Origin: an uncultured SAR324 cluster bacterium
Lineage (GTDB): Bacteria; SAR324; NAC60-12
NCBI GenBank assembly: GCA_902564345.1
Contig: CACFAY010000011.1
Coordinates: 1 to 37,146 of the forward strand
Reading direction: 5' to 3'
DNA length: 37,146 bases
Part shown: positions 162-37,146 of the stretch, in pieces
Layout: every line of letters starts with the position of its first letter
Numbering within the stretch: position 1 is the first letter of the stretch
Made by a program: the position numbers and the translations under genes
Notes under the pieces: generated by a model
Told to the model about the DNA's origin: nothing
Databases searched by the model: none
What the model saw: only the letters and a program-made list of their open reading frames with translations

Positions 162-669
162 TTTTATAGAATCTCTCCTTTCTCTTAATTTAGTAAGAAT
201 TTTTACCTAAGATTGCACCCCCAATCTATCAAAATGGGTGGAGTTCTAATTTTTATCAACTTTTTAAAAAAAACTATAATTTCACAGATTTTTTCGAGAT
301 TTATAGGAATCTAAAAAAGTATATTAACTATTGATAACAAGGAGGTAAATATTAAATTGTTTTATTAATACTCCCAATAGTACCCCCATACTATCATCTT
401 TAATTCATTTAATTAGAATCCATTCAAACACTATACTGAATGTGAACCAGTCTAATTAACTAATATTAAAAGCATCTTAATCCACCCTCTCACTTATACC
501 AAGTTTTATTGAATTGTACTAAATATCAGGGCCTATAGAAACCTATTTGGACACCTAAAATTTAGCACTTGTCCATGGGTGCAGAATTTTTTCTTGCGGT
601 CTATTTATTAATTTGGTATTACTCCCTTAATAACATCTTCGATCAAAATTTGAATAAGTGCGCTGTAAG

Positions 670-1509
670 ATGATTAATCAAAAGGTTTGTGTTATCGGCG
701 ATAACTGTATTGACATCTACCCTGAGTCAGGAAAGAAATATGTTGGGGGGAATGGTATTAACAGTGCTATCGCCCTCAAACGAAACGGCATTGATACAGG
801 ATATGTTGGGATAATTGGAAATGATGTAGAGGGTGAATTAGTAATTGCTGCTCTCAAAAATGAAAATATTGATTGTTCAAGAGTTTCTAAGCTGAATAAA
901 AAAACAGCTTGGACAAAAATTGAACTTTACAAAGGTGACAGAGTTTTTGTTAATGAATCTTTGGGAGTCCAGCTCAAGTTTGATCTCATCGAAGAGGATT
1001 ATGACTACTTAAGCAATTTTGCCTTTGTTCATCATACAATTTTTTCTAATTGGCCAACTGCAGTATCAGATGGTATAGAATCATATTATGAAAAAATTGA
1101 AAATCAAATCCAAAGACTGCACAGTAATCGAGTAAGAGTTTCGGTAGATTTTTCAGAACAGTTTGATGAAAAGCTTCTAGCTTCCTTAAAAAACTTTGTG
1201 GATTTGGGATTTTTTTCTAGACCTGAACTTTCTCCTACTGAATTAAAAGAAGAGTTTAAAAAGCTTTATGGATACGGGTTCTCGGTCATTGTAATTACCA
1301 TGGGTGCTAAAGGTAGTGCCGCGTTTTTTGGTAGTGATATTATTACTCAGCCTGCCATCCCCACAAAAGTAATTGATACTCTGGGGGTCGGTGATGCATT
1401 TATAGGTGCATTTTTGTCACAATGGGCAAGAAAGAAAAAAATAAAATTAGCATTAAATTTCGCAGCTAATTACGCAGCAAATACTTGTTTAATAAATGGA
1501 GCATTTTAA
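670..1509 (+). CDS. frlD: PfkB-family sugar kinase, fructoselysine 6-kinase (FrlD)-like
   Basis: PfkB C-terminal signature DTLGVGDAFIGAF; N-terminal GGNGINSAIALKRNG; next gene is a FrlB-like SIS protein. ORF track starts at GTG 658; ATG at 670 is more likely. Confidence 0.75.
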   Translation: MINQKVCVIGDNCIDIYPESGKKYVGGNGINSAIALKRNGIDTGYVGIIGNDVEGELVIAALKNENIDCSRVSKLNKKTAWTKIELYKGDRVFVNESLGVQLKFDLIEEDYDYLSNFAFVHHTIFSNWPTAVSDGIESYYEKIENQIQRLHSNRVRVSVDFSEQFDEKLLASLKNFVDLGFFSRPELSPTELKEEFKKLYGYGFSVIVITMGAKGSAAFFGSDIITQPAIPTKVIDTLGVGDAFIGAFLSQWARKKKIKLALNFAANYAANTCLINGAF

Positions 1510-1637
1510 ATAGATATTTCACTTATAAAACCGAAGAAATATTTTTTCATAGGTCTAATTGTCTTAATAATTCAAATTCTAAAAACTAGGCAAAAATTAT
1601 AGTATTTACAGCTAATCTTTAAGAACAGGAGAATTGA

Positions 1638-2648
1638 GTGTTTAATTTTAATCAGGATCGATTTGTAAAGGTAATTAAAGACGCTATATCTATTCGCATT
1701 GAATTAGAAAAATTAATTGATAATCTTTACTCTAGTGGATTTGAGAATTTATTTTTGATTGGAGTTGGCGGTACATATGCTCATTTCCTGCCAATTAAAT
1801 ACATGTCTGAAACCCTTTCAACAATGCCCGTCCACGTTGTTCAGGCAGCAGAGTTCATACTTCAGGACAACAAACATTTTTCAAAAAACTCTCTATGTGT
1901 CTTCTGCTCTAGGAGCGGTGACACTAAGGAAATAGTAGAGGCCATTACCTTCTGCAATATGGCCGGAGCCACTACATTGTCTTTCGTATGTAACCCAAGA
2001 ACTCCTGTTTGTGAACTTTCTAAGTACCATTTCGTAAGTTTTGCAGAAGATGATCACATAGCCGAATGTTTTTATCTAGTAATGTACACAGTAATATTCC
2101 GATTATTAAAAAACCGTGGAGAATTTGTGGAATACGATAAAATGTTCGATCAAATCAACTCGATTGCCCCTTATCTTGTAAAAGCAAAGGAGCAATCCGA
2201 AGAAATTTCAAAGTCGCTTGCAAAACATCATAAGAATACTGATTATCACATGGTTGTAGGTTCCGGTGCAGTATGGGGAGAAGCATATGATTATGCCATG
2301 TGTGTTCTAGAAGAGATGCAGTGGATAAAAACAAAGTCTATACATGCAGGAGAATATTTCCACGGCACAATTGAGTTGACTGAAGAAAACACCAGCATTA
2401 TTTTGTTGTACGGTGAGGACGCTACAAGACCTTTGATGGACAGAGTAAATAATTTTGTGATTAAAATATCAAAGGAGGTTACTATTTTTGACACCAGGAC
2501 TGTTGAACTTCCAGTGGATGAAAAATTTCGTCAATATTTGTCTCCATTAGTCATTTATACAATGTTAGAACGATTCAGCTGTCATCTTGAAAAAGAAAGG
2601 AACCATCCATTATCCACAAGGCGTTTTTACCGTCAGATACAATATTAG
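1638..2648 (+). CDS. frlB: SIS-domain sugar isomerase/deglycase, fructoselysine-6-phosphate deglycase (FrlB)-like
   Basis: SIS motif CVFCSRSGDTKEIVEAI; HAGEYFHGTIEL and C-terminal NHPLSTRRFYRQIQY resemble FrlB; GTG start; follows the PfkB kinase. Confidence 0.7.
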   Translation: MFNFNQDRFVKVIKDAISIRIELEKLIDNLYSSGFENLFLIGVGGTYAHFLPIKYMSETLSTMPVHVVQAAEFILQDNKHFSKNSLCVFCSRSGDTKEIVEAITFCNMAGATTLSFVCNPRTPVCELSKYHFVSFAEDDHIAECFYLVMYTVIFRLLKNRGEFVEYDKMFDQINSIAPYLVKAKEQSEEISKSLAKHHKNTDYHMVVGSGAVWGEAYDYAMCVLEEMQWIKTKSIHAGEYFHGTIELTEENTSIILLYGEDATRPLMDRVNNFVIKISKEVTIFDTRTVELPVDEKFRQYLSPLVIYTMLERFSCHLEKERNHPLSTRRFYRQIQY

Positions 2649-2735
2649 TCTTTAAGAAGAATTAAGTGGAAAAAGTATAAAATTTAATTAATTGTCATTT
2701 TATTATAATTAAAATTTTTCAATCCATAAAAAAAT

Positions 2736-3992
2736 ATGTTTGGCATAAGAGAAAATGAAATTGCAGACGCTCTAACTACAGCAGATATTTGGAAAATTAT
2801 GCTTAAAGAGATACCTCCTATCGCAGCAGAATACTTTATTGGTGGTGCTGACGAACTGACTACTCTTAAAGCAAATGTACTCGCATTTAAGCAAATTTTG
2901 TTAGCCCCTCGTGGTGCAATCAAATTTAAAAAATTAGACACTAGTTCAAAAATTTTTAGTCATAATCTTTCCCTTCCTTTTTTTATTGCCCCAATTGGTA
3001 GTCTTCGCACAGCTTGGCCAATGGGGGATGCAGTTGCATCTCAAGTAGCAGGAGAATTCGGCACTGCTATGACATTGTCAACACTTTCACAAACACCAAT
3101 GGAAGATGTTTCTGAGGCTTCTGCTGGACCTAATTGGTTTCAACTTTACCTATGCGGGGGCAGAAATACTGCAAAAAGAGGAATTGAAAGAGCAAAAAAT
3201 GCAGGATTTTCAGCTTTAATCCTTACAATTGATTCAGCTGTATCAGGAAACAGAATAGGACACGCTAGAATGAAACCAATGGACGCAGCAGATTCTATTT
3301 TTTCTGGTCCAAGAAAAATGGAGCGAGCATATCACAAATTAAAACTTGCACCTCAGATTATTCCCCGATTAGGGTGGCTTTTCAGACACTGGAATGACGG
3401 AGGGATTCTTCCATTTGTAAATATCATAGACGAAGAAGGTAAATCGATGCCTTATGTTGGAATTGGTGAACAACTTTCTGCTTCAGCGGTTACATGGAAT
3501 GATATTCCCTGGATAAGAGATACATGGGGTGACCAGCCTCTAATTATTAAAGGTATTCACTGCTTAGAAGATGCTCTTAAAGCAGAGGAGCTTGGGGCAG
3601 ACGGTGTTATTTTTTCAAACCATGGTGGTCGACAGTTAGGACAGGCAATCCCAACACTTCAAATTGTTGCTGAGATTATGCCTAAGTTAAAAAAAGCAAA
3701 TTCAAAACTCGATTGCGCTATGGACGGTGGAATTAGAAATGGTATGGATGTATTAATTGGGCTAAGTTACGGTCTCAAAGCTGTTGGTTTAGGAAGGGTT
3801 GTAGCAGGGGGACTTGGCGCAGGTGGCCATATGGGTCTAACAAAGACTTTTGAGTTAATTAAAGAGGATTTGTGTCGTTCGATGGAACTTCTTGGAGTAC
3901 AAGATATAAAACAAATACATGATCAAGGAGAAAAACTTAGGCGCAAAAGCATTCTTTCTGGCACGGAATATTTCCCTGATTTTATATTTTAA
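2736..3992 (+). CDS. FMN-dependent alpha-hydroxy-acid dehydrogenase (lactate/mandelate dehydrogenase family)
   Basis: Active-site motif SNHGGRQLGQA, FFIAPIGSLRTAWPMGD, GGIRNGMDVLIGLSYGLKAVGLGR. Confidence 0.85.
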   Translation: MFGIRENEIADALTTADIWKIMLKEIPPIAAEYFIGGADELTTLKANVLAFKQILLAPRGAIKFKKLDTSSKIFSHNLSLPFFIAPIGSLRTAWPMGDAVASQVAGEFGTAMTLSTLSQTPMEDVSEASAGPNWFQLYLCGGRNTAKRGIERAKNAGFSALILTIDSAVSGNRIGHARMKPMDAADSIFSGPRKMERAYHKLKLAPQIIPRLGWLFRHWNDGGILPFVNIIDEEGKSMPYVGIGEQLSASAVTWNDIPWIRDTWGDQPLIIKGIHCLEDALKAEELGADGVIFSNHGGRQLGQAIPTLQIVAEIMPKLKKANSKLDCAMDGGIRNGMDVLIGLSYGLKAVGLGRVVAGGLGAGGHMGLTKTFELIKEDLCRSMELLGVQDIKQIHDQGEKLRRKSILSGTEYFPDFIF

Positions 3993-4132
3993 TTTTATAT
4001 GTTTTATTGATATTGGCAATTATAAATTTAATTTCTAAAACCTCTAGGGCTTAAACTCTAAAAAATTAAAATTTTATTAATAATTTAAATATTGCAGATA
4101 AACAATTTAATGACTGTTATAGTTTCAATTAG

Positions 4133-4162
4133 AACTTGTGGTGGCAAAGTTGTATAGGAATC
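4133..4162. repeat. Degenerate direct copy of the selC 3' end (att-like remnant)
   Basis: aacttgtggtggcaaagttgtataggaatc vs aacttgaggtggcggagatgtataggaatc at 8489-8518: 26/30 identical, same orientation. Confidence 0.6.
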
Positions 4163-4461
4163 TACATTTTTCAATTATCCACCACTTCGTATCGAACCTT
4201 CTTAAACCGACTAATATCGCAAAAATAAACCTTTAGGAAGATTTAGGGACAAGTTATAAAAGAACATGAGGGAAATGATTGACCCCTCAATTTATCCCCA
4301 TTAAATTACAAAAAAAAGGCAGTTTAAATCTATCTAAAAGATATACAAAAACCTCCAAGTAAAATCCCCTCATTCTTGTAAATTACTACCAAAATCTGGT
4401 ATTTGTAGGTATATGATGATGATTAAAATTTTATATTGTTTTTGTATTTGTACAGGAAAAG

Positions 4462-4893
4462 ATGAAAAAGTATTTGTTTAATCCTCTATTTTGTTTTTTT
4501 TGTCTCACAGTTATCTCCTGTGGGACGAATGACAATACAACAGATAGCACAAATATCGAAAGTTCATCATACAGTGACAATGGAACTACATATACAATTA
4601 CAGTGAATTCATCAAAATTTTACATAGACGGTGTCCTAACAAAATCATTGATTTTGAAGAAAGGATATACCTATTATTTTGATTCCACTGATTCAACCAC
4701 AAATAACCATCCTTTATTTATTGGCACAACTTCTTCTGGGGGAAATTATTCTTACGAATATACTTCTAGTGTAACAAACAGTCGAACAACGAATGATACT
4801 TTAAAAATTTTAGTTCCTTCAGACTCTCCTTCAACACTTTATTACAATTGTGGTAATCATGTATCAATGGGAGGATCTATAACAATTAACTAA
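4462..4893 (+). CDS. Lipoprotein with cupredoxin-like (type-1 copper) C-terminal domain
   Basis: Lipobox-type leader ...FFCLTVISCGTND; candidate copper ligands in NNHPLFIG and YYNCGNHVSMGG (C-x2-H-x2-M). Confidence 0.55.
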   Translation: MKKYLFNPLFCFFCLTVISCGTNDNTTDSTNIESSSYSDNGTTYTITVNSSKFYIDGVLTKSLILKKGYTYYFDSTDSTTNNHPLFIGTTSSGGNYSYEYTSSVTNSRTTNDTLKILVPSDSPSTLYYNCGNHVSMGGSITIN

Positions 4894-4908
4894 AACCAAT
4901 CATAATCT

Positions 4909-5352
4909 ATGAAACACCTACTCATTATCCTCTCAATCCTTCTTCTTTCTTCTAGAATTTTTGGAGATAGTCATAAACTTTTCAGATTTGATAGTTCCCT
5001 TGATAGTAGAAGTTCTTTGTCTATCATCAATTATGGTGAAACTCTTTATGGATGGGGAGAATATCCTGATTATGTTTGGAAAGGATTTGGTGATAAAGAA
5101 ACTCATCCAAAATATAAAGGTAAAGTTGAGAACGGAGTTCCAAATGGTCTTGGTTATTTGATTTACCCAAATGGGAGTAGGTATTTAGGCAGTTGGAAAA
5201 AAGGGGAAATGAATGGTCAAGGATCATTCACTTACCCTAACGGAGAAAAGTATGTTGGAGAATGGAAAAATAGTAAATTTTGGAATGTAACAGGAAAAGA
5301 CATAGACGGAAATATTATTGGAAAAGTCATGAATGGAGAATTACAAGAATGA
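4909..5352 (+). CDS. Secreted MORN-repeat protein
   Basis: Signal peptide MKHLLIILSILLLSSRIFG; MORN units YKGKVENGVPNGLGYLIYPNGSRYLGSWKKGEMNGQGSFTYPNGEKYVGEWKN. Confidence 0.8.
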   Translation: MKHLLIILSILLLSSRIFGDSHKLFRFDSSLDSRSSLSIINYGETLYGWGEYPDYVWKGFGDKETHPKYKGKVENGVPNGLGYLIYPNGSRYLGSWKKGEMNGQGSFTYPNGEKYVGEWKNSKFWNVTGKDIDGNIIGKVMNGELQE

Positions 5353-5759
5353 AACACCTTCTCATCATCCTCTCAATACTTCTGCTTCCAATATCTGTAT
5401 TTGGTTGGGACTGGACAGTTAAATATGATATGAAACAATCAGATGTAAGATATGATACTGTAATATTATCTGTTCCAAAAGTAATTAAGAGTTTTTGGAC
5501 ACTACCAAATCAAGTAGGTATTTGGAAGTGTTCATTGAGTAGATATGATGATGATTATTATGGTTCTAGTAGTGTCTCCTTAGATTGTCGTTCAAGAGAA
5601 GACAAAACTATTTTATTAACTTCAAAAATTGAGTGTAATCTAAGAGGTAGGAAGAACAATGAGTTGGTAGTTGTTTATCCAAAAACTATCAAAAATAACA
5701 AAAATTCAAAAAATAACACTTATCCAGAAACAATTGTTACACTTAAATGTAATTATTAA
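5349..5759 (+). CDS. Small secreted protein of unknown function with same signal peptide as the flanking MORN proteins
   Basis: ATG at 5349 overlaps the previous stop (ATGA); MKHLLIILSILLLPISVFGWDW. The ORF-track start at 5280 adds a non-signal-like 23-aa extension. Confidence 0.6.
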   Translation: MKHLLIILSILLLPISVFGWDWTVKYDMKQSDVRYDTVILSVPKVIKSFWTLPNQVGIWKCSLSRYDDDYYGSSSVSLDCRSREDKTILLTSKIECNLRGRKNNELVVVYPKTIKNNKNSKNNTYPETIVTLKCNY

Positions 5760-5785
5760 ATTAGGAAGGCAGTAAACAAATAAAA

Positions 5786-5855
5786 GGGGATTTATAACCT
5801 CTATTTCATTGGAAGAATAACACTCGCTTCCACCATACTTCCAATTAAAATCCCC
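5786..5855. promoter_or_regulatory. Nested inverted-repeat intergenic structure
   Basis: Outer perfect 8-bp arms ggggattt (5786-5793)/aaatcccc (5848-5855); inner perfect 8-bp arms attggaag (5808-5815)/cttccaat (5838-5845). Confidence 0.45.
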
Positions 5856-5911
5856 CACACATTGAAATCCAAATCAAGTTCTGGTATAAATTGGATAATC
5901 CTAAACCACCA

Positions 5912-6376
5912 ATGGATAACTTAGTTAAAAAGATAATAATACTATTATTCGTAATCCTTACATTCATCTTCTCAACCACTTTTATCTTTCAATTCTTCAT
6001 CTACTTGATTGAGGAAATAGTGCCCAAATCTCAACTACAATCACAAAGTTGGGGTGAGTGGATTTATGTTTTAGAAAATCAAAATGGAGGAAAATCATAT
6101 TATGATAAGGATAGATTAAGAAAAAGTGGAAATTATATCTATTTCTGGGAGTTATTAGATTTTACAGAGAAAAATGACACCGAAGGTGTTACCTCTTATA
6201 TCCAATTGGATTGTTCTGTTTTTAGAATAAAGAAACTAAAGTCACAACATTTTACTAAACCCAAGGGAGAAGGAAAAATAAAAGGTGACTTCCCCCAACC
6301 AGATGAGTGGTATTTTCCTCCCCCTAAATCTATAATAGGAAGATTTTATAATAAAGTTTGTGAGGAACACCAATAA
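5912..6376 (+). CDS. Membrane-anchored protein of unknown function (N-terminal TM)
   Basis: MDNLVKKIIILLFVILTFIFSTTFIFQFFIYLIEEIVPK... then soluble domain; ATG at 5912 preferred over the alternative start at 5891. Confidence 0.5.
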   Translation: MDNLVKKIIILLFVILTFIFSTTFIFQFFIYLIEEIVPKSQLQSQSWGEWIYVLENQNGGKSYYDKDRLRKSGNYIYFWELLDFTEKNDTEGVTSYIQLDCSVFRIKKLKSQHFTKPKGEGKIKGDFPQPDEWYFPPPKSIIGRFYNKVCEEHQ

Positions 6377-6379
6377 ACC

Positions 6380-6835
6380 ATGAAACACCTACTCATCATG
6401 CTCTCAATACTTCTTCTTTCTTTTCCTGTAATTGGAAATAGCCATAAAAGTAAAACTCTATATGCGTGGGGTGAATGTTGTGATTGGGTATGGAAAGGCT
6501 CTGGGGATAAAGAAACTCACTCTATATATAAAGGTCAGGTAAAGAATGGGAAACCAGAGGGTATTGGAATTTTGATTTACAAGGATGGAAGAAAATATGA
6601 GGGTAATTGGAAAAATGGGATTTGGAATGGAAGAGGGAAATACACTTTCAATGATGGATTTGGATATGAAGGTGAATGGAAAAATGGTGTTGAAAACGGA
6701 ATGGGAATTTTAACTTATCTCAATGGAGACAAATATGAAGGAGAATTTAAGAATGGGAAAATGTTAAATGGTAAAATGTATAAAAAAAATGGAGATATAC
6801 ATGTACAAAAAAATAACGAATGGAAAATAGAATGA
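6380..6835 (+). CDS. Secreted MORN-repeat protein
   Basis: MKHLLIMLSILLLSFPVIG leader; several MORN units (YEGNWKNGIWNGRGKYTFNDGFGYEGEWKNGVENGMGILTYLNGDKYEGEFKNG). Confidence 0.85.
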   Translation: MKHLLIMLSILLLSFPVIGNSHKSKTLYAWGECCDWVWKGSGDKETHSIYKGQVKNGKPEGIGILIYKDGRKYEGNWKNGIWNGRGKYTFNDGFGYEGEWKNGVENGMGILTYLNGDKYEGEFKNGKMLNGKMYKKNGDIHVQKNNEWKIE

Positions 6836-7070
6836 GATAATAAGTATCACTCTCTAAAAAAAACAACCCACCAAAATTTATACCAAGCCCCAAAAATCAC
6901 TAAAATAACGTTTATAGCAAAAAAAGCTAGTATATTTAAGTAACTAAATATACTTATATTTCAGATCAAAATGATCTTGAAAATAAATATTTTTGTGGTA
7001 CTGGAATATATTACAATTTTTTAAATTAATAGATTTTGAAGTAAAAATTACTAAAATTAAGAGAAATCGA

Positions 7071-8372
7071 ATGTATAAATTTGCAGATCAGAAACAAGAA
7101 AAGGAAACGGTTTTTACAATCAAAACTCAGGACGTAAAATTCGGGGTTGGTGCATTAAGAGAATTATGGTCTGATGCAAGATCATTGGGAATGAACCGGA
7201 TTGCTCTATTCCTCGATTCCAATATTCAAGCCAGTGCACCAATTACTCTTATTCTGGAATCATTTCAATCAACCGGACTGGAAGTCAATATCTATGATGC
7301 AGTTGTTTTTGAACCCAATTCTTCCAGTTGTATGGCCGCAGCAGATTTTGTGAAACAGGGTGAATATGATGGCATTGTTTCCATCGGAGGAGGCTCAGTA
7401 ATGGATACTGCAAAAGCAGCCAACCTCCTCAGTTGTCATGGAGGAGAGATCCTAGACTATGTCAATGCTCCTATAGGTCTTGCCAAGAAGGTACCTGGCC
7501 CTTTATTGCCACACATTGCATGCTCTACCACATCAGGGACAGGGGCTGAAACCACAGGTATTGTGGTACTTGATATTGAGGAAGTTGGTCTAAAATCAGG
7601 GATCTCTTCTCCGTATCTGAAACCGGATCGCGCCATAGTGGATCCAGAAACAACTTTGACTCTTCCTTCAGGTGTGATTGCTTCAACTGGATTTGATGTA
7701 CTTACACATGCCGTGGAATCATATGTTGCGAGGCCCTACACAAGTAGTGATCGTCCATTGAACCCTTCTCTTCGAATTGGTTATCAAGGGGCTACACCAT
7801 ATAACGACATCGGAGCTCTGGCGGCTATTCGTATTGGTGGTAAATATCTTTTACGTGCAGTTCAGGACAAACAGGATGAGGAAGCTCGGTATCAGTTGAT
7901 GTTTGCAGCTACTCTCGCTGGACTTGCTTTCAATTCAGCTGGTGTGCATATTCCTCATGCCATGAGCTATTCTGTTGCAACCTTAAAGCATGAATATACT
8001 GCACATGGTTATGAAGATCTTCCACCAATGGCACCACATGGAATTTCTGTTGTTTTGAACGCACCTGCAGCATTTCGTTTCACAGGACCAACCAATCCAG
8101 AACGTCATCTCGAAGTTGCCCAAGCGATGGGAATTGATACCAGAGATGCAAAATTACAAGATGCAGGGATGATCCTTGCTGACTGTTTCATAGATTTGAT
8201 GAAGAAAACAGGCCTCCCCAATGGTCTTGGAGCTCTTGGTTACAGTGAACAAGATATTCCTGCTCTTGCTGAGGGAGGTTTTGCTCAACAACGACCTCTG
8301 AGTATGTCGCCATGTACTGTCAGTGAAGAAGATTTAAAGAATCTTTACAAGGATGCACTTCAATATTGGTAA
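7071..8372 (+). CDS. Iron-containing alcohol dehydrogenase, hydroxyacid-oxoacid transhydrogenase (ADHFE1)-like
   Basis: GGGSVMDTAKAANL, PHIACSTTSGTGAETTG, GFDVLTHAVESY, NPSLRIGYQGATPYNDIGALAAIRI, GVHIPHAMSYSV, MAPHGISVVLNAPA match the ADHFE1 branch. ATG at 7071 preferred over the track start at 6993. Confidence 0.85.
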   Translation: MYKFADQKQEKETVFTIKTQDVKFGVGALRELWSDARSLGMNRIALFLDSNIQASAPITLILESFQSTGLEVNIYDAVVFEPNSSSCMAAADFVKQGEYDGIVSIGGGSVMDTAKAANLLSCHGGEILDYVNAPIGLAKKVPGPLLPHIACSTTSGTGAETTGIVVLDIEEVGLKSGISSPYLKPDRAIVDPETTLTLPSGVIASTGFDVLTHAVESYVARPYTSSDRPLNPSLRIGYQGATPYNDIGALAAIRIGGKYLLRAVQDKQDEEARYQLMFAATLAGLAFNSAGVHIPHAMSYSVATLKHEYTAHGYEDLPPMAPHGISVVLNAPAAFRFTGPTNPERHLEVAQAMGIDTRDAKLQDAGMILADCFIDLMKKTGLPNGLGALGYSEQDIPALAEGGFAQQRPLSMSPCTVSEEDLKNLYKDALQYW

Positions 8373-8497
8373 CAGTGAGATTCGATGTTGGCATGTTTCC
8401 TACAATTATTTAGGAGTACTAAGAACAATAAAAGTCTTAATATCCCTTGATAATAAGGGCTTTGATAAATATTATTGGATCTTACTGAAACTTGAGG

Positions 8498-8596
8498 TGG
8501 CGGAGATGTATAGGAATCGAACCTATCTACGATAGTGTTAGTACCGTACACTCGGGTTTGAAGTCCGGGGCGCCCACCAGTGACACATCCATCTCC
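8498..8596 (-). tRNA. selC: tRNA-Sec (anticodon UCA)
   Basis: Reverse complement GGAGATGGATGTGTCACTGGTGGGCGCCCCGGACTTCAAACCCGAGTGTACGGTACTAACACTATCGTAGATAGGTTCGATTCCTATACATCTCCGCCA: CTTCAAA anticodon loop, long variable arm TACGGTA/TATCGTA, T-arm ATAGG-TTCGATT-CCTAT, encoded GCCA, 99 nt. Confidence 0.88.
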
Positions 8597-8767: not shown

Positions 8768-9019
8768 ATGCGATATCTATCTTTGATTATTTTTGCAGGA
8801 TTTCTGGTTTTTTGTGTGGACTTTGCCACTCAAAATACGGAAAACGTTATAATTAATTATCAACAGGACTGGCTGAAATTTAGTTTAAGAAGCGAGCGTC
8901 CAGTATTTGTCCCCATATTCTTTACTTTTGCTTTTGGGATAATTTTTTGTGTTGTCTATTTCTTCATTTACCATTCAGTTTTACATGCTAAACTTAGAAG
9001 GCAAAAAAAAAGAAATTAA
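8768..9019 (+). CDS. LapA-like (DUF1049) inner-membrane protein, apparently frameshifted at its C-terminus
   Basis: Two TM segments: LIIFAGFLVFCVDFATQNTENVIINY ... PVFVPIFFTFAFGIIFCVVYFFIYHSVLHAKLRRQKK; the coiled-coil continuation lies in another frame (8949-9188) across an A9 tract. Confidence 0.65.
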   Translation: MRYLSLIIFAGFLVFCVDFATQNTENVIINYQQDWLKFSLRSERPVFVPIFFTFAFGIIFCVVYFFIYHSVLHAKLRRQKKRN

Positions 9020-9230
9020 ACGACTAAATAAACTAATTGAAAGTCATAACAAAACAGACTTTATTCATGATGATCGTAAAAGTGAATTGAACAAGGTTGT
9101 GGCTAGTGTCCATGATGAAGTTGATGAGCATGATGACTTAGCTACTCCTGACTTGCATAAAAAAGAGGATTTGAAAACATCTACGTGAAAGCTAAATACT
9201 ACAAAATTAATAGCCAAATGGAGAAATTAG

Positions 9231-10769
9231 ATGAGTGTGCATGATATTATGCAAAATCTTGGTCTAAAGCAGCTTAATTCAGGTGTAAGCTCTGGAAAAA
9301 TATGGCCAAAAGTAACTGGGCCCTTGACCGAGTCTAAAACACCAATAGATGGGGAGGTAATAGGGCAAATTCAAAACGCCAGCTTAGAAGATTATGATAA
9401 GGTTATGTCACTAGCTAAAAATGCATTTAAGGAATGGCGTAAGGTTCCAGCACCTCAGCGTGGGGAAATTATTCGTCAAATTGGGAACTCAGTGAGGGAA
9501 GCTAAGGAAGATCTTGGCAAACTGATTTCGTGGGAAATGGGTAAGATTTACCAAGAAGGACTAGGAGAAGTTCAGGAGATGATAGACATCTGTGATTTTG
9601 CTGTGGGTCTTTCAAGACAGCTTTATGGTTTTACCATGCACTCAGAGCGTCCTGGGCATCGCATGTATGATCAATACCATCCGCTTGGAATTTTGGGCAT
9701 CATTACAGCTTTCAATTTTCCAATTGCAGTATGGTCATGGAATGCCATGATTGCTGCTGTTTGTGGGAACGTATCTATCTGGAAACCAAGCCCCAAAACT
9801 CCACTTTGTTCAATTGCACTCCAACTTATACTCGGAAAAGTAATGCATGAAAACGGGTTACCTGAAGGAGTATTTAACCTTGTAATAGGTTCGAATGAGG
9901 AAATCGCAGATGAAATGGTTAATGATAGACGTATACCGTTAATTTCTGCAACGGGATCCACAAACATGGGCCAGCAAGTTGCCAGTAAAGTAGCTTCACG
10001 GCTAGGCAGGAGCATTTTAGAACTCGGTGGTAATAATGCAATAATAGTGACTGAAAGCGCAGATTTGAAGATAGCAATTCCAGGGATTGTTTTCGGTGCT
10101 GTTGGAACATGTGGTCAGCGTTGCACAACCACTCGGCGGTTAATAATTCATGAATCAATTTTCGGGAAAGTGAAGGAAAAACTTATCCATGCATACACTC
10201 AAATTGAAAATAGAGTTGGAGATCCACTTGATCCAGAAACACTAATCGGTCCAATGATTGACAATGATGCAGTGAAAAAATTTCAAAATGCTCTCAATGC
10301 TATTCGAAATCAGGGAGGAGAGATAATTTACGGAGGAGAAATTTTGTCAGGATTTCCAACAGATTTATATGTACAACCGGCTCTGGCCATTGCTGAAAAT
10401 CACTGGCCTATTGTACAAGAAGAAACATTCGCACCGCTGCTTTACCTCATTAACTACAAAAATTTTGATGAGGCAATTAGTCTTCAAAACGAAGTTCCAC
10501 AAGGTCTTTCCTCGGCAATATTCACAAGAGATTTAAGTGAATCAGAAAAATTCCTTTCTCAGGAAGGCTCAGATTGTGGACTTGCAAACATAAATATCGG
10601 AACTTCAGGTGCAGAAATAGGAGGAGCGTTTGGAGGAGAAAAGGATACTGGAGGAGGAAGAGAATCTGGTTCAGATGCATGGAAAGCCTACATGAGACGT
10701 CAAACTAATACTATCAACTATTCATCAGATTTACCTTTAGCACAAGGAGTGAATTTTGATATTCAGTAA
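9231..10769 (+). CDS. Aldehyde dehydrogenase, ALDH7 family (aminoadipate-semialdehyde/piperideine-6-carboxylate dehydrogenase-like)
   Basis: LELGGNNAIIV, GTCGQRCTTTRRLIIHE, and the ALDH7-type C-terminus SGAEIGGAFGGEKDTGGGRESGSDAWKAYMRRQTNTINYS. Confidence 0.9.
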   Translation: MSVHDIMQNLGLKQLNSGVSSGKIWPKVTGPLTESKTPIDGEVIGQIQNASLEDYDKVMSLAKNAFKEWRKVPAPQRGEIIRQIGNSVREAKEDLGKLISWEMGKIYQEGLGEVQEMIDICDFAVGLSRQLYGFTMHSERPGHRMYDQYHPLGILGIITAFNFPIAVWSWNAMIAAVCGNVSIWKPSPKTPLCSIALQLILGKVMHENGLPEGVFNLVIGSNEEIADEMVNDRRIPLISATGSTNMGQQVASKVASRLGRSILELGGNNAIIVTESADLKIAIPGIVFGAVGTCGQRCTTTRRLIIHESIFGKVKEKLIHAYTQIENRVGDPLDPETLIGPMIDNDAVKKFQNALNAIRNQGGEIIYGGEILSGFPTDLYVQPALAIAENHWPIVQEETFAPLLYLINYKNFDEAISLQNEVPQGLSSAIFTRDLSESEKFLSQEGSDCGLANINIGTSGAEIGGAFGGEKDTGGGRESGSDAWKAYMRRQTNTINYSSDLPLAQGVNFDIQ

Positions 10770-30447: not shown

Positions 30448-33400
30448 TTAAATTGCGGGTGGTTCTGAATGTGACAGGCTGGTAGGAATGCCACTGACAC
30501 TAAGTCTTACCCAATATCCCTGGCCTTTTTCTACTGTGCTGAATGTAGTGTAGCCAAGTTCTTCCAATTCATCAGCAATAGATGATTTAGGGGAATATGC
30601 AAGCCATTTGCTATTCTCGTCATCCCATGTCCAAATTGAATGAACTCTATCATATGAACCCATATAATCATAAGTTTCAGAAGTTGAATCACTTTGTGGT
30701 GGAGCGCATGCTACGACTAGCATTATCATTCCAGCAGAAAAAATCATCAATTGCCATGAGGAAATTTTCTGTGATTTTGAAATGCTGATTAACATTGTTT
30801 GTTTGAATCTGAACATTAAGCTTGCAGATGACAACAGTAACATTGCCATCACTAAAGCAAAACCATTAAATTGTCCTATTTGATTTCCGGAGACAATGAA
30901 GTCATCTTCCATAAAGTTAAGTCCTGAGGAAGGTCCATTTCCTCCTGAGTTATCTATAAATCCCAAAGTATTGGAATCATCTTCTTTTGTTTTGTCAAAA
31001 TTTCCAGCCTGAGTTATTTCCACAACCGTGATCTCTTTAGATGTTCCAAGTAAATTCCATTCAGAAGTCATGCTGCTCAATTGGGGTAAAGCAGAATATC
31101 CTCCATAATCGGCAATTTCAAAATTTGTAGGATTTGCAGGAGAATTCAGTTCAATCCAGAATCCTTCCCCAGCTTCAATGTTAGAGCTTAATTCAGAATA
31201 TCCTTTTTCTATATATATAGTACTTTCTTCACCACTTGTATAAAACTGCCATGCGCCATTTCGTCTTACCCAAACAGTTTTATAATCCCTGAAAAAGCTT
31301 CCAAAACTTGCTGGTGCAATTGATGAATATGCAGGAAGTGCGACAAGATTGCGAGATCCGTTCAATGCAACTGAAGCGGGGGTACTGTTTACATTTAATG
31401 TTTGACTTAAGGAAGATGGCAAATCATCTCCAATTCGGTATTGAGCAGTCCCCTGAGACAAACTTACGGAAGTTATATTGTCATATTCATTTGAAACTAA
31501 GAGGGATGCGTCTGATGATGTAGACTGGACAAATACTGGTTTTCCTAAAGATGTGTCAACTCCAACCCAAGTTCCAGTCACTGAGTATTCTGATAAAACT
31601 CCTGTACGTTGAGAAGTCCTGATAGTAGACCTGCTTCTAGACTGAGTCCTTGAATTGTTAGATGTATTTAAAGGTATCGTGAGGGTTATTTTATCAGCTT
31701 CCTGACTTACAGTACCTCCGGCACCTACTTCAGGTAAAACGTATTTTTCATTAGTTGAAACAGTCGTTAATACGGGATACATCAGGCCCTCATTGTTCAT
31801 GCTAACAGTGCTAGTGATACTCTCATCAGGGGCAAATGTGGATGTAATTTCTCGATCACTATTTACTGTTATGGTCGAACCTGTTGCCGCCTCCAAAGTA
31901 CTATCAGATATACCAGAACCCTGTACCTGAACGGAAGTATTTGAGTTAGTTATTGTACTGGTTATGCTACGGCTTACTCCATCATCAGCTGTCGCTGCTG
32001 AAATAGTGCTTACCACCATTCCACTCTTAACTTGGAGATCCATATTCGTAGATGAACTGAAAGTAGATAATACTGGTAAGGAATTTACAGGCAAAGTTTC
32101 GTAACTGGTAGAAGATGTACCATCAGTACCAATACTCGCTCCAAGAGTTCCACCTGTAACAGCCATGTTGGCAGTCACTCCATTACTAGTACTTATGGAA
32201 ACTGATAGTCCTGAATCTGTGCTTAAGCTTGATGTGGTGGTTGCTGAAGCTTCATCCACGTTGGATGTTGTTCTTCCAGAACCTCCACTGAGAGTAATTT
32301 CAATAACTGCTGAACCATCTGGACTTATTAAACTGGTAACCTGGGAGCTTATACCCGTCGATTCATCAGTTGTAGCCGGCTGAGAAATTTCAGAAATTCC
32401 ACTATCACTAATTACTACTTCTGATCCTTTAGGTGCTTTAACATTTGGTCCTGCTCCAGAGGAATCAACACCAACTGTGACCTCACCAACTGAACTAATA
32501 TTTGTAGAGAGTTGTGATCCCGTAGAAAGCGTCTGTAAGATGCTGATTGAAGCATCATCGTTCATATTAAAATCTGCACCCAGAGGAACATTTACTTTAG
32601 ACTCAGTTCCATCTTCAGTTTTAACTGTGCTGTAACCAGTACCATCGGTTTTCATGTCAATATTAAGTTCCGTCTCCCCTGATACAAGCTTATGGGCTTG
32701 AGCAACTTCTGGATCTGTAGAAGTAACATTTTCAAGAGTACTACCCTCAGGATATTTTGGTACAATTGCGCCAGTAACATTTGCTACAGCATTAATTTCA
32801 ACGATTGGCATGACCGTAACGGAAGTAGATCCGTATGCTGCAATCAGGTCATCATCAACGACTTCGAGACTAAACAGAAGAATAGTAACTTCAGAAATAT
32901 CTGGAGCAGAGAAATATGATATACTTTCACTTTCCCTTTCAATTGTAATATCAGTTCGCTGGCCAACATAATTCCATTTATATGAAACGATACGTCCAGT
33001 TGGGTCAGGGTCATAAGAAGCCGAACCGTCAAGAATCACTCTTGTCTTTTCATTTATTTTCTGGTCTTCACCAATTTGTACTATTGGACTGAGACCTTTC
33101 TGCAGGTCATCGTTGATATTGGTAAAAGTATATTTAAAAGCATGCAACCTGTTTGCTGAAGTGGAAGCGTAATTAGTGTCATCTGACTCCGTATAACCAA
33201 TAATTCGTACACTTACATCACCATCGACAACCGAATCATCCTCACCGGTAATGGTTACTTCCTGACTGCGGTTCCAATTAGCTGGAGTGAAAGTTAAAGA
33301 ATATTGATCAAGTGTTGCTTCCGTTAAGTCAGAGCTACTTAATACCACCTGTACATCACTTGATGGTCTGCTAAGGAGTTTAACTTCCATATTAGCAGTT

Positions 33401-36400
33401 TTTCGTTCACCTTCTGCCTCTGAAAGTAACCAGTTTGCACTTGTAACATATCTGTAAACACCATGAATATTATAGCCATAGGCACCTGTTTCTATAAATC
33501 CTATGCAGTTCTGAAGACATTCAACTCCTCCAGATGTACTAATTGAACCAATTGTATCTGTTGATGTAGTAAGTGTTATGTTCGAAACAGTACTTTCATC
33601 AGTCATACTAAGATCAGGTTCTCCATCAATTTCAATTATAGCAATCTCATTATTATTGTCCGATGTTATTAGAGTATCATCAAGCATCATCACGGCATCT
33701 GCGCTAAATATAGATGTTTGATTACTGGCGAATTTAATGCTTCCTCCTGCACTTTGCAGCAAGCCATTACTCATAATTAAAGCACTTTTCAATATTAAAT
33801 CAGCTTCTCCTGTTGAAATTCCCTCAGTGCTTTCATCAATTATTAAGCTTTCCTCCACTGTGAGATCGCTTTCTGCGCTTCCCAGAGTAAGGATAAATCC
33901 ATTTAAATCAAGCAATGCTATATTTAAAGGTTGATCGCTAGTCAAAGTTGTATCTTTTCCTAATTTCAAATTTGTTTGATAAAATACATAGGTTCCACCT
34001 AATTTGAAAAGAGAACTCCCAGTAACCCAAGTACTACCAGTGAAATCTATTGTGCCTGTTCCAGTCAACTCACCGCCACCAAGAAAGGAAAGTGTACCAC
34101 CAGTAGATGTAACTCCACCAGCACTAATATTCAGAGTAGAAAGCATTGTTATATCTGCATCTCCTGTAACTATAAACTCGTTTGGATTATCCACAATTAC
34201 AGCAGAAGAAATTTGCAGGTCTGTATTTGAATCAGCAAGGGTAAGTGTAAAGTCATTGAGTTCCAACTTATCAAATTCAATAGCTGTTTCACTAGCTATT
34301 GTGGTGTTATCATTCAGACTCAAAGTGGCAGATGAACTATCTAGGCTGCCACCAGTTTTTGTATAGTTACCACCAAGGCTAAAAATACTTTCTGCAAGAT
34401 TAAACTCAAATGATTCGGACTGAACTGTAGTATTTGTAAAACGAACTGTTCCCTCTGTTGACTCAAGCTTACCTTCGTTAAGGTTAACATTGCCTCCAAC
34501 ACTAAAGTCTGCATCCCCAGTATTGAGATGAACGTTCGCCTCCACTAATGAAAAATCCCCGCTGACTGCCAAATCGCTTGTGGCTGATCCCAGCTCAAGA
34601 GTATTATCTCCAAGATTAATCGATTTAACCGAAATTTCAGAATTACTGGTTATTTCCATGTCAGCTAATATTGTAGTTTCAGCGTCTAAGGTTTGCAGAA
34701 TCCCTCCCGTTTTAAAAATATCCCCACCTAACTCTAATTGAGCGTTATTTAGTCTCAGCAGACCTCCGGTCTGATTTATACCACCTGTAAATTTCAGGGA
34801 GGCATTATCTGAGATAATTCCACCATCGTCCACACTTAAAAGTCCTTTTAGATTTAAATCTGCTGAATTTGCAAAAATTTGTTCATCTGCTTGATCAAAG
34901 TTAATTGGCCCTCCGATTGTAAGCCCAGTTGTTTTAGAACCAAGAGTTAGAGTATTGTCATTCAACGCAATACCTAGTAGATACGATAAAGTATCGCTGG
35001 TTAACGTAAGGTTATCTGTAAGTTCCAAAATCGTTCCGTTTTCTGTGGAGGTCAAAGTACCACCAGATTTAAAATAATCGCCACCAAGTTTAAGAAAACT
35101 TGAAGTAACGTCCAGTTCACCTCCGGATTGGTTACCTCCTTTTTCAAGGGAAACAAATCCTCCTGTTGATGAGATTGCGCCATCTTCTATGTTAAGAATT
35201 TCCTCAAGAGTAATATCTGCCAAGCCTGAACTTAAATGTTCATTTGAATTGTTGAAGGTCATGTTGTCGGACACCGTCACATCACTATCTGCTGATCCCA
35301 GAGCAAGAATATGATCATTCAATATAAGTGTTTTAATCTCGATCTCTGTGTCGCTTGTATAAGTGGTATCGTCAGTCAGGTTCCATACCATATTTTCAAG
35401 ATTCATTGAGCCTCCTGCTTTTGATAAGGTCCCCTGTGTGTACCAGTGATTATCTTTTAACTCCAGTATTTTCCCTGCAGTCACTTGTATCTCGCTGTTA
35501 TTCCACCTGCCAATTGAAGATTTAATTTTAGTATCCTCTTGTGCATCAATTAAATTGCTTTCTTTGAAGTCAAAACTCCCACTGATTTGAGAATTTGATG
35601 AATCTAAGACCAGCTGACTATCATTTTCAAAAGTTAGTGTCCCGCCAAATAAGAGTTCTCCTTCTTCTCCACTTACTGTCATGGATTTTTGCTGAGGAAC
35701 TGAAATTGAGTTGGATATGTTGAGTAGAGTGTTGTCAGCCAACTGAAGATTTGAACTACCCTCGTGATCAAGATTTTCAACTAAGATTGTTGATGAATCG
35801 TGTATAATTTGGTCTCCAGAACATACAGAATTTTGATTCTGGGTTATTTGCAGTACTGCAGTAAGCACGTTTTGATCAATGTGGAGATGAGAAATTGATG
35901 TTGCATTATCTGCTAGCTTAAGTATTCCTCCATTCTGGTTCAGACTGATTGAATTATTTTCCAGACTTGAAAAATAACCACCGCCCTGCAGAGCAAGTTC
36001 AAGGTTGTTGATCTCAAGCTTATTTTCACCTTTGTAGGTAAGAATTCTTTCAGGAGCAATATATATCACTGAATTTGCAAGGTGACTAATATCTCCATCA
36101 ATTGTAGAATTATCTAAGACACACATTGTACCACCCATCAAATTTATATTTGCAGTAAGGTGACCTTTGAAATCCATTGTACCAGTCAAATTAAATGTGA
36201 GCCCACCAACAACTTCGAATATTGCGCTGTCTGTCATAGCAATTTGATTTTTAAAAGACAGTTCAATTTCTTCCTGCACCTTTGCAGTTATATTATTTAG
36301 TGTTAGTAAGGCATCTTGATTGTCCTGTAGAAGCTCAGTAATAAATACTAGACCTCTACTTCCTTCAGTTGAAAGAGTTGCTGCCGAGCTAACTATTAGA

Positions 36401-37146
36401 TTTTCAATATTAAATACGTACTGTTCGCTGTCAAAAATAAGTTTTAAGTCAGCACCAAGATTCAGGTTTGTAACTTTTGCTCCAGCACTTTTAACTTGTA
36501 TTCCTTTTCCTGATGAGCTGTCTGCTTGCACCATTACAAGCGCAACTGTAATGTCATCAGCAAAAATAATTGCTCCTTCAGAATTACTTAGGAGAACAGC
36601 GTTGGAATTCAGCATAGTTCCTTTGCCGAGAAAAGAAAGCTGGTACGAATTGATATCGATGACATCACCTAAATATGTCAAAGTCATTTCTGAGGCAACA
36701 TCAATATTAGAATCACCTGAAATTTTGATGTTTGAACCAATATTTGTATTATAATCAATATCGAGTAGGCCTCCTGATGCTAGTTCAAGTGTTCCATCAA
36801 TCAAGCTGTGATATTGAATTTGAGAGCTTACATTTGGTGGACTAAACTTAATAGTACCTCCAACTTTCAGGGTATCAGAAAGGCTTAAGGATCCTCCGTC
36901 AGTTCCTTTAATTTCAAGTTCTAAGTCAGATGGAACTTCAAAAGACTGTGTTACACTTAAAGTCTTACTACTGTCTAAATCCATTCTGGCATTTTTGCTG
37001 AGCACGATCTCTGTTGCAATCGTAGTATCCTGATCTAAATCAATCAATCCATCATTGAATATCAATTTCCCGCCACTAATAATATTATTCTCAGCATTCA
37101 GTTTCAGAACTCCTGATAGAGTAATGTTGTCATTTATATCAATAGT
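30448..37146 (-). CDS. Giant surface protein: tandem beta-solenoid-like repeats, Calx-beta-like and PKD-like domains, Ser/Thr-rich region; N-terminus outside window
   Basis: Frame open to 37146 (TIDINDNITLSGVLKLNAENNIISGGKLIFNDG...); track start at 37065 is an internal TTG. Repeats LGSxxSDLxV...GxADl...STGG...LGGxYxKtGG; PKD-like VILDGSASYDPDPTGRIVSYKWNY. Confidence 0.8.
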   Translation of the reverse strand, partial: TIDINDNITLSGVLKLNAENNIISGGKLIFNDGLIDLDQDTTIATEIVLSKNARMDLDSSKTLSVTQSFEVPSDLELEIKGTDGGSLSLSDTLKVGGTIKFSPPNVSSQIQYHSLIDGTLELASGGLLDIDYNTNIGSNIKISGDSNIDVASEMTLTYLGDVIDINSYQLSFLGKGTMLNSNAVLLSNSEGAIIFADDITVALVMVQADSSSGKGIQVKSAGAKVTNLNLGADLKLIFDSEQYVFNIENLIVSSAATLSTEGSRGLVFITELLQDNQDALLTLNNITAKVQEEIELSFKNQIAMTDSAIFEVVGGLTFNLTGTMDFKGHLTANINLMGGTMCVLDNSTIDGDISHLANSVIYIAPERILTYKGENKLEINNLELALQGGGYFSSLENNSISLNQNGGILKLADNATSISHLHIDQNVLTAVLQITQNQNSVCSGDQIIHDSSTILVENLDHEGSSNLQLADNTLLNISNSISVPQQKSMTVSGEEGELLFGGTLTFENDSQLVLDSSNSQISGSFDFKESNLIDAQEDTKIKSSIGRWNNSEIQVTAGKILELKDNHWYTQGTLSKAGGSMNLENMVWNLTDDTTYTSDTEIEIKTLILNDHILALGSADSDVTVSDNMTFNNSNEHLSSGLADITLEEILNIEDGAISSTGGFVSLEKGGNQSGGELDVTSSFLKLGGDYFKSGGTLTSTENGTILELTDNLTLTSDTLSYLLGIALNDNTLTLGSKTTGLTIGGPINFDQADEQIFANSADLNLKGLLSVDDGGIISDNASLKFTGGINQTGGLLRLNNAQLELGGDIFKTGGILQTLDAETTILADMEITSNSEISVKSINLGDNTLELGSATSDLAVSGDFSLVEANVHLNTGDADFSVGGNVNLNEGKLESTEGTVRFTNTTVQSESFEFNLAESIFSLGGNYTKTGGSLDSSSATLSLNDNTTIASETAIEFDKLELNDFTLTLADSNTDLQISSAVIVDNPNEFIVTGDADITMLSTLNISAGGVTSTGGTLSFLGGGELTGTGTIDFTGSTWVTGSSLFKLGGTYVFYQTNLKLGKDTTLTSDQPLNIALLDLNGFILTLGSAESDLTVEESLIIDESTEGISTGEADLILKSALIMSNGLLQSAGGSIKFASNQTSIFSADAVMMLDDTLITSDNNNEIAIIEIDGEPDLSMTDESTVSNITLTTSTDTIGSISTSGGVECLQNCIGFIETGAYGYNIHGVYRYVTSANWLLSEAEGERKTANMEVKLLSRPSSDVQVVLSSSDLTEATLDQYSLTFTPANWNRSQEVTITGEDDSVVDGDVSVRIIGYTESDDTNYASTSANRLHAFKYTFTNINDDLQKGLSPIVQIGEDQKINEKTRVILDGSASYDPDPTGRIVSYKWNYVGQRTDITIERESESISYFSAPDISEVTILLFSLEVVDDDLIAAYGSTSVTVMPIVEINAVANVTGAIVPKYPEGSTLENVTSTDPEVAQAHKLVSGETELNIDMKTDGTGYSTVKTEDGTESKVNVPLGADFNMNDDASISILQTLSTGSQLSTNISSVGEVTVGVDSSGAGPNVKAPKGSEVVISDSGISEISQPATTDESTGISSQVTSLISPDGSAVIEITLSGGSGRTTSNVDEASATTTSSLSTDSGLSVSISTSNGVTANMAVTGGTLGASIGTDGTSSTSYETLPVNSLPVLSTFSSSTNMDLQVKSGMVVSTISAATADDGVSRSITSTITNSNTSVQVQGSGISDSTLEAATGSTITVNSDREITSTFAPDESITSTVSMNNEGLMYPVLTTVSTNEKYVLPEVGAGGTVSQEADKITLTIPLNTSNNSRTQSRSRSTIRTSQRTGVLSEYSVTGTWVGVDTSLGKPVFVQSTSSDASLLVSNEYDNITSVSLSQGTAQYRIGDDLPSSLSQTLNVNSTPASVALNGSRNLVALPAYSSIAPASFGSFFRDYKTVWVRRNGAWQFYTSGEESTIYIEKGYSELSSNIEAGEGFWIELNSPANPTNFEIADYGGYSALPQLSSMTSEWNLLGTSKEITVVEITQAGNFDKTKEDDSNTLGFIDNSGGNGPSSGLNFMEDDFIVSGNQIGQFNGFALVMAMLLLSSASLMFRFKQTMLISISKSQKISSWQLMIFSAGMIMLVVACAPPQSDSTSETYDYMGSYDRVHSIWTWDDENSKWLAYSPKSSIADELEELGYTTFSTVEKGQGYWVRLSVSGIPTSLSHSEPPAI
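33700..35400 (-). repeat. Tandem coding repeats, period about 350-360 bp (about 118 aa)
   Basis: LGSADSD, LGSKTTG, LGSATSD, LADSNTD, LGSAESD motifs recur near 35290, 34935, 34580, 34222 and 33873. Confidence 0.7.

Follow-up and report, generated by a model that had tools for sequence, protein, structure and literature searches.

The selC locus

The window, i.e., the whole stretch of DNA analysed, comprises 37,146 nt from an uncultured SAR324 cluster bacterium whose genome (G000) is ~51% complete. It holds selC, the gene for tRNA-Sec and a known island hotspot, e.g., for the LEE in enterobacteria. ARAGORN and Rfam (RF01852, 57.5 bits) agree in placing this gene on the minus strand with its 3' end facing left, as originally predicted. 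Features of the locus are given below by position, strand and description (att, attachment site; cargo, gene carried by a unit).

217-221, plus: ACCCC, candidate arm-type integrase site, 74 nt left of att 291
291-311, plus: weaker, older displaced att site TTTTCGAGATTTATAGGAATC, 18/24 identical over 291-314, with flank homology on both sides
291-4141, no strand: integrated unit 1, att at each end; PfkB sugar-kinase type, SIS-domain protein and FMN-dependent dehydrogenase genes; without integrase
370-387, plus: ACTCCC/ACCCCC pair, 12 nt apart, candidate arm-type sites right of att 291
412-560, plus: dispersed sequence, several congener copies of which directly follow a displaced 3' half of another tRNA
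658-1509, plus: PfkB-family carbohydrate kinase (PF00294), cargo
1638-2648, plus: SIS-domain protein (PF01380), cargo; 69-71% nucleotide identity, only in G019/G025 (other genera)
2736-3992, plus: FMN-dependent alpha-hydroxyacid dehydrogenase (PF01070), cargo; 71% nucleotide identity, only in G017/G024 (other genera)
4133-4162, plus: displaced att site, 26/30 identical to 8489-8518; right flank resembles that of G009 L026:8333
4142-8497, no strand: integrated unit 2, att at each end; genes for a small secreted protein, two MORN proteins, two small proteins and an iron-containing alcohol dehydrogenase (Fe-ADH); without integrase
4282-4299, plus: ACCCC/TCCCC pair, candidate arm-type sites right of att 4142; aligns with an ACCCC pair at the same place in G009 L026:8333
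4462-4893, plus: small secreted lipoprotein-like protein, cupredoxin-like by eye, no Pfam family, cargo
4909-5352, plus: secreted MORN-repeat protein (PF02493), cargo; 86% nucleotide-identical copy at G000:C5:20384-20762
5349-5759, plus: small secreted protein with the shared MKHLLIILSILLL signal sequence, called from sequence, no Pfam family, cargo
5915-6376, plus: Adhesin_E-like small protein (PF16747), cargo
6380-6835, plus: secreted MORN-repeat protein (PF02493), cargo
7071-8372, plus: Fe-ADH (PF00465), cargo
8489-8518, plus: selC-proximal att site, i.e., the selC 3' end (8498-8518) and 9 nt past the gene
8498-8596, minus: selC, anticodon TCA, intact attachment gene, 3' end towards the left
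8768-10769, plus: right-hand core flank, LapA-domain protein and aldehyde dehydrogenase (ALDH), syntenic beside selC in G001, G003, G004, G014 and G016

As predicted, a direct repeat of the selC 3' end occurs at 4133-4162, and its 26/30 identity to 8489-8518 compares with 18/30 for the runner-up on either strand of the window. With up to 3 mismatches allowed, the 21-nt selC end was found in the window only at 8498 and 4142; the expected count of this core was 0.00 (100 dinucleotide shuffles), and no shuffle matched as well. Identity ends inside the T-loop, at 4162/8518, the very point at which homology stops in displaced copies of four genomes, while at the other end the repeat takes in the 9 nt past the tRNA 3' end (8/9 identical). 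As in islands lodged in tRNA 3' ends, the interval runs from an intact tRNA gene to a direct repeat of the 3' end of that gene.

The copy at 291 is weak when taken alone and lies within the reach of chance; it is supported by homology of both flanks, the left resembling the left flank of selC in G009 and the right resembling the sequence to the right of displaced att sites at L026:2042 (G009) and L055:18127 (G015). Similarly, the right flank of 4142 aligned to that of the displaced att G009 L026:8333 with a score of 48 (shuffles: mean 20.5, maximum 32), and for each match of a window flank to the G009 or G015 att flanks, 0/1000 dinucleotide shuffles reached the observed score. Beyond the 9 nt adjoining the tRNA, the left flank of 4142 showed no match to that of 8498, with a score below the shuffle mean. 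Since a third copy, not part of the original prediction, is present at 291-311, in addition to those at 8498 and 4142, at least two units stand in tandem in the window. The island proposed originally is supported, but the single remnant that was drawn is too small, since the array reaches left to at least 291. Of an older third unit left of 291, only the right end is present, cut by the contig start.

Cargo of the units

The MORN-to-ADH block had been considered accessory, and indeed it is not syntenic in relatives; its conserved synteny in all of them, which an island would not show, was not seen. The three genes of unit 1 gave no nucleotide-level match in 16 congeners. In unit 2, the Fe-ADH is 93% identical (amino acids) to a protein of another genus (G019:C51) and at most 49%-50% identical to that of every other relative, including the congeners and a second copy in G019. 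Since core ALDH is 74% identical between G000 and G019, these values support lateral acquisition of the Fe-ADH, as judged from sequence. The cargo is thus patchy among relatives and includes a gene shared with another genus. The near-identical ADH of G019:C51 (L030:9057-10358) again adjoins a tRNA, lying ~480 nt from a tRNA-Gly 3' end. A check of base composition, suggested with the original prediction, was not decisive (GC of 0.347 for 4142-8497 vs. 0.365 right of selC); within unit 2, GC is uneven, at 0.309 in the MORN part and 0.435 in the ADH.

MORN arrays were also considered as exclusive cargo of such elements and rejected, since MORN motifs are frequent in 16/17 congeners, many of them away from integrases. 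A promoter-like block, CTCCAAGTAAAATCCCC...ATTCTTGTAAAAC...TTATATT, recurs ahead of many MORN and lipoprotein genes (window 4347-4402, G005, G004 and G000:C26). At G005:C3:136-154 kb (L040), a long array of secreted-MORN genes adjoins tRNA-Ala and an integrase relative that is broken into two frames. Further along the window, a very large, repetitive, surface-protein-like ORF of >2200 codons occupies 30448-37146 on the minus strand and is open at the contig end.

Displaced selC ends in relatives

Across 17 genomes of the genus, the 21-mer matched only selC, five displaced copies and one further copy in G015; a reversed-pattern control gave 1 match in the same 17 congeneric genomes. Displaced copies occur once in the window, three times in G009, and once each in G005 and G015, the last on a contig without selC. 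All share the strand of selC, and in G005, G009 and the window they are located to the 3' side of the gene. Sites with a selC end number three in the window and four in G009, as tandem accretion would give. Selected family-level relatives had no displaced selC end in the stretches examined, some of which reach only shortly from selC. One unit of G009 (L026:8333-9743, contig G009:C22) measures 1.41 kb between two selC att sites and holds a single gene and no integrase. The product of this gene has MrcB_N and NucS_C domains, is nuclease-like and matches the PADLOC PDC-S02 candidate family, making it a candidate defence gene by sequence.

The locus is bounded by core markers, the MlaA operon on the left and LapA-ALDH on the right. 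The distance from MlaA to selC is 2.5 kb in G003, 2.4 kb in G014 and 3.3 kb in G004, and 42.3 kb in G005, where both lie on one contig. In G005, a MORN-rich block of 16.8 kb extends from the displaced end at L021:2961 to selC and is missing at that place in G016; the left flanks of L021:2961 and of G016 selC match over 242 bp (79%), and this match ends at the repeat. The empty-site comparison that the original prediction called for was therefore obtained between two congeners, G005 and G016, with the junction at the repeat. Since MlaA of G000 is on a separate contig (C35), the left end of its island is outside view. C35 itself was considered as this left end and rejected, as it begins in a transporter-like gene and no att was found on it. 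Considering that G000 is ~51% complete, its assembly may lack both the left end and any selC integrase.

Integrases at selC and other RNA genes

No integrase had been visible in the window, and this was confirmed: neither a Phage_integrase match on its contig nor a match in the window to the G001-type integrase or a fragment of it was found. The one integrase relative in the G000 genome, at C28, has an in-frame stop within the match. In G001, a SAR324 MAG (LSNO01, SAR324-CTD7B; PMC4782131), an intact ORF for a 613-aa tyrosine recombinase starts 73 nt from the selC 3' end; it matches Phage_integrase (PF00589, 37.6 bits), has conserved catalytic-type residues and gives a sub-threshold match to DUF6538. 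This protein is a candidate selC-specific recombinase. A piece of a G001-type integrase (residues 4-43, 68%) adjoins the displaced att of G015, on a contig that also bears the core left flank. Relatives of the G001 protein, 26-32% identical over the aligned set, each start beside the 3' end of tRNA-Ser, -Pro, -Leu, -Ala or tmRNA. The aligned integrases proved too divergent to serve jointly as a query of public collections. Searches of IMG/VR with a single integrase query and with the exact att 21-mer returned nothing.

Candidate arm sites and a probable shared terminus

ACCCC motifs flank several of the att sites. In G001, G009 and G015, they occur 78-91 nt to the left of att; on the right, the distance is 59-72 nt in G009 (L026:2042) and G015 and, more broadly, 59-72 or 119-149 nt at several displaced sites. 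The background frequency is 0.09 per 180 nt. The motifs are candidate integrase arm sites. None was found beside selC of G003, G014 or G004, at the window selC, left of 4142, at L026:1388 or at L021:2961. Since ACCCC is lacking both at selC and to the left of 4142, and the left flank of 4142 does not match that of 8498, the unit ends there are at best decayed. ACCCC as a feature of the whole integrase family was rejected, since among the flanks checked only the selC type carries it, bar one ACCCC at a tRNA-Ala site.

The sequence at 412-560, which holds a repeat spaced by ~11 nt (GACACCTA), has copies at, e.g., G016:C2:25014-25164, G005:C2:357185-357313 and G000:C9:41264-41368. The window copy lies ~120 nt inside att 291, next to sequence like the anticodon region of tRNA-Arg(CCT), and the two may form a composite end. 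In G005, tRNA-Phe is intact at C2:333857 with a displaced 3' half at 357327, and tRNA-Arg(CCT) is intact at C1:570499 with a displaced part at 563443, which suggests that 3'-end insertion is a general habit in the genus. For several congener copies, no intact tRNA was found nearby, and the remaining tRNAs (Met, Thr and others) were identified only by eye. From these positions, 412-560 is probably a shared terminus of tRNA-targeting elements. This explains the sequence better than a transposon, for which no transposase was identified in the two copies examined. At G016:C22:15291-15399, two tRNA-Phe 3' halves share a strand and are separated by 73 nt, possibly a tiny unit or an empty tandem site; an intact tRNA-Phe was not found there.

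Origin of the array

Given the selC-end repeats, the homology of their flanks, the integrase beside selC in G001, and the presence and absence of blocks among relatives, we consider it very likely that, in this SAR324 genus, a family of integrative elements with tyrosine recombinases uses the selC 3' end as its attachment site, and that repeated insertion has built a tandem array. The attP of such an element would recombine with the last ~20 nt of selC, from the T-loop to CCA, and insertion would restore an intact selC on one side while driving the earlier 3' end outward on the other. Successive insertions would thereby give an array in which each junction carries one selC 3' end; in the window, the sites at 8498, 4142 and 291 would bound two units that lack an integrase, together with the right end of a third. 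The attP circle of an excised unit would join its end to its start via one copy of TGTATAGGAATC. An integrase of the G001 type presumably made the units of the window and, since no integrase is present there, these units are presumably decayed, cis-mobilisable or trans-mobilised.

It is also conceivable, although considerably less likely, that the att relics are real while the gene content arrived mainly via homologous recombination or other insertions, so that the units as bounded never moved. The mosaic make-up of unit 2, with an ADH of 0.435 GC and 93% amino-acid identity to another genus beside MORN genes of 0.31 GC, would fit such a history, as would the missing arm motifs at the selC-proximal end and the numerous MORN genes elsewhere in these genomes. 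However, the left ends of both units retain element-end sequence and motif pairs in common with G009. It is very unlikely that the 4133 copy is instead a degraded second selC, left by segmental duplication or as a tRNA pseudogene: the homology does continue past the tRNA 3' end, but the 3' end alone was copied, with the same T-loop stop in four genomes, its flanks bear common element-end sequences, and the wider left flanks of 4142 and 8498 are without homology. Chance similarity in an AT-rich genome, which could yield the 291 copy alone, is exceedingly improbable for the 4142 copy in view of the shuffles, and the original prediction's repeat stands beyond chance, since displaced ends recur left of selC in congeners with common flank sequences.

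Returning to repeated insertion at selC, we tentatively suggest a wider reading, one we hold to be rather doubtful as a whole: a genus-wide family targeting tRNA and tmRNA genes, with long tyrosine recombinases, paired arm repeats of ~11 nt and a shared terminus, whose tiny integrase-less units (e.g., the 1.4-kb unit of G009) would accumulate at selC through the action of an integrase in trans, like a cassette-capture locus on a tRNA end.

Comparison with known systems

Stepwise insertion at tRNA ends is a known bacterial route to extra genes, and a repeated-insertion hotspot is now placed at selC in an abundant, uncultured deep-ocean lineage. The locus is an address for recently acquired SAR324 genes, including metabolic enzymes, a nuclease and secreted MORN proteins. 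No description of a selC array in SAR324 was found in the literature searched, most subscription papers being outside its scope.

In Dehalococcoides, ssrA islands occur in tandem downstream of the RNA gene and are bounded by ~20-nt direct repeats of its 3' end; crossover takes place in the T-loop, the cargo is specific to the strain, and many units lack an integration module (PMC3146451). The SAR324 array is alike in its tandem units, 3'-end repeats, T-loop crossover and units without an integration module; however, the target in Dehalococcoides is tmRNA and the enzyme a serine recombinase, whereas in SAR324 these are tRNA-Sec and a tyrosine-recombinase-type protein (PMC3146451). The additive flexible genomic islands of Methylophilaceae, which use tRNA-Lys ends in another lineage, are a close precedent (PMC10872708). 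Streptococcal CIMEs keep att sites, lack recombination genes and occur in tandem at one tRNA or gene end (PMC7563491). The units of the window have sequence-defined att sites at both ends and no integrase, and stand in tandem; no ICE or IME parent was identified for them, and transfer genes were not seen. Tycheposons, which the SAR324 elements resemble in description, are likewise tRNA-bounded, cargo-bearing tyrosine-recombinase elements of marine bacteria (PMC10872708). Enterobacterial selC islands, the LEE and others among them (reviewed in PMC7545054), share the selC 3' end as a hotspot, but their host is unrelated, and no virulence-type cargo was seen in the SAR324 window. Given the close precedents in Dehalococcoides ssrA islands, additive flexible islands and CIMEs, the SAR324 array can by analogy be assigned to a known kind, as a fresh case of tandem accretion at a tRNA 3' end that is new at selC in this lineage.
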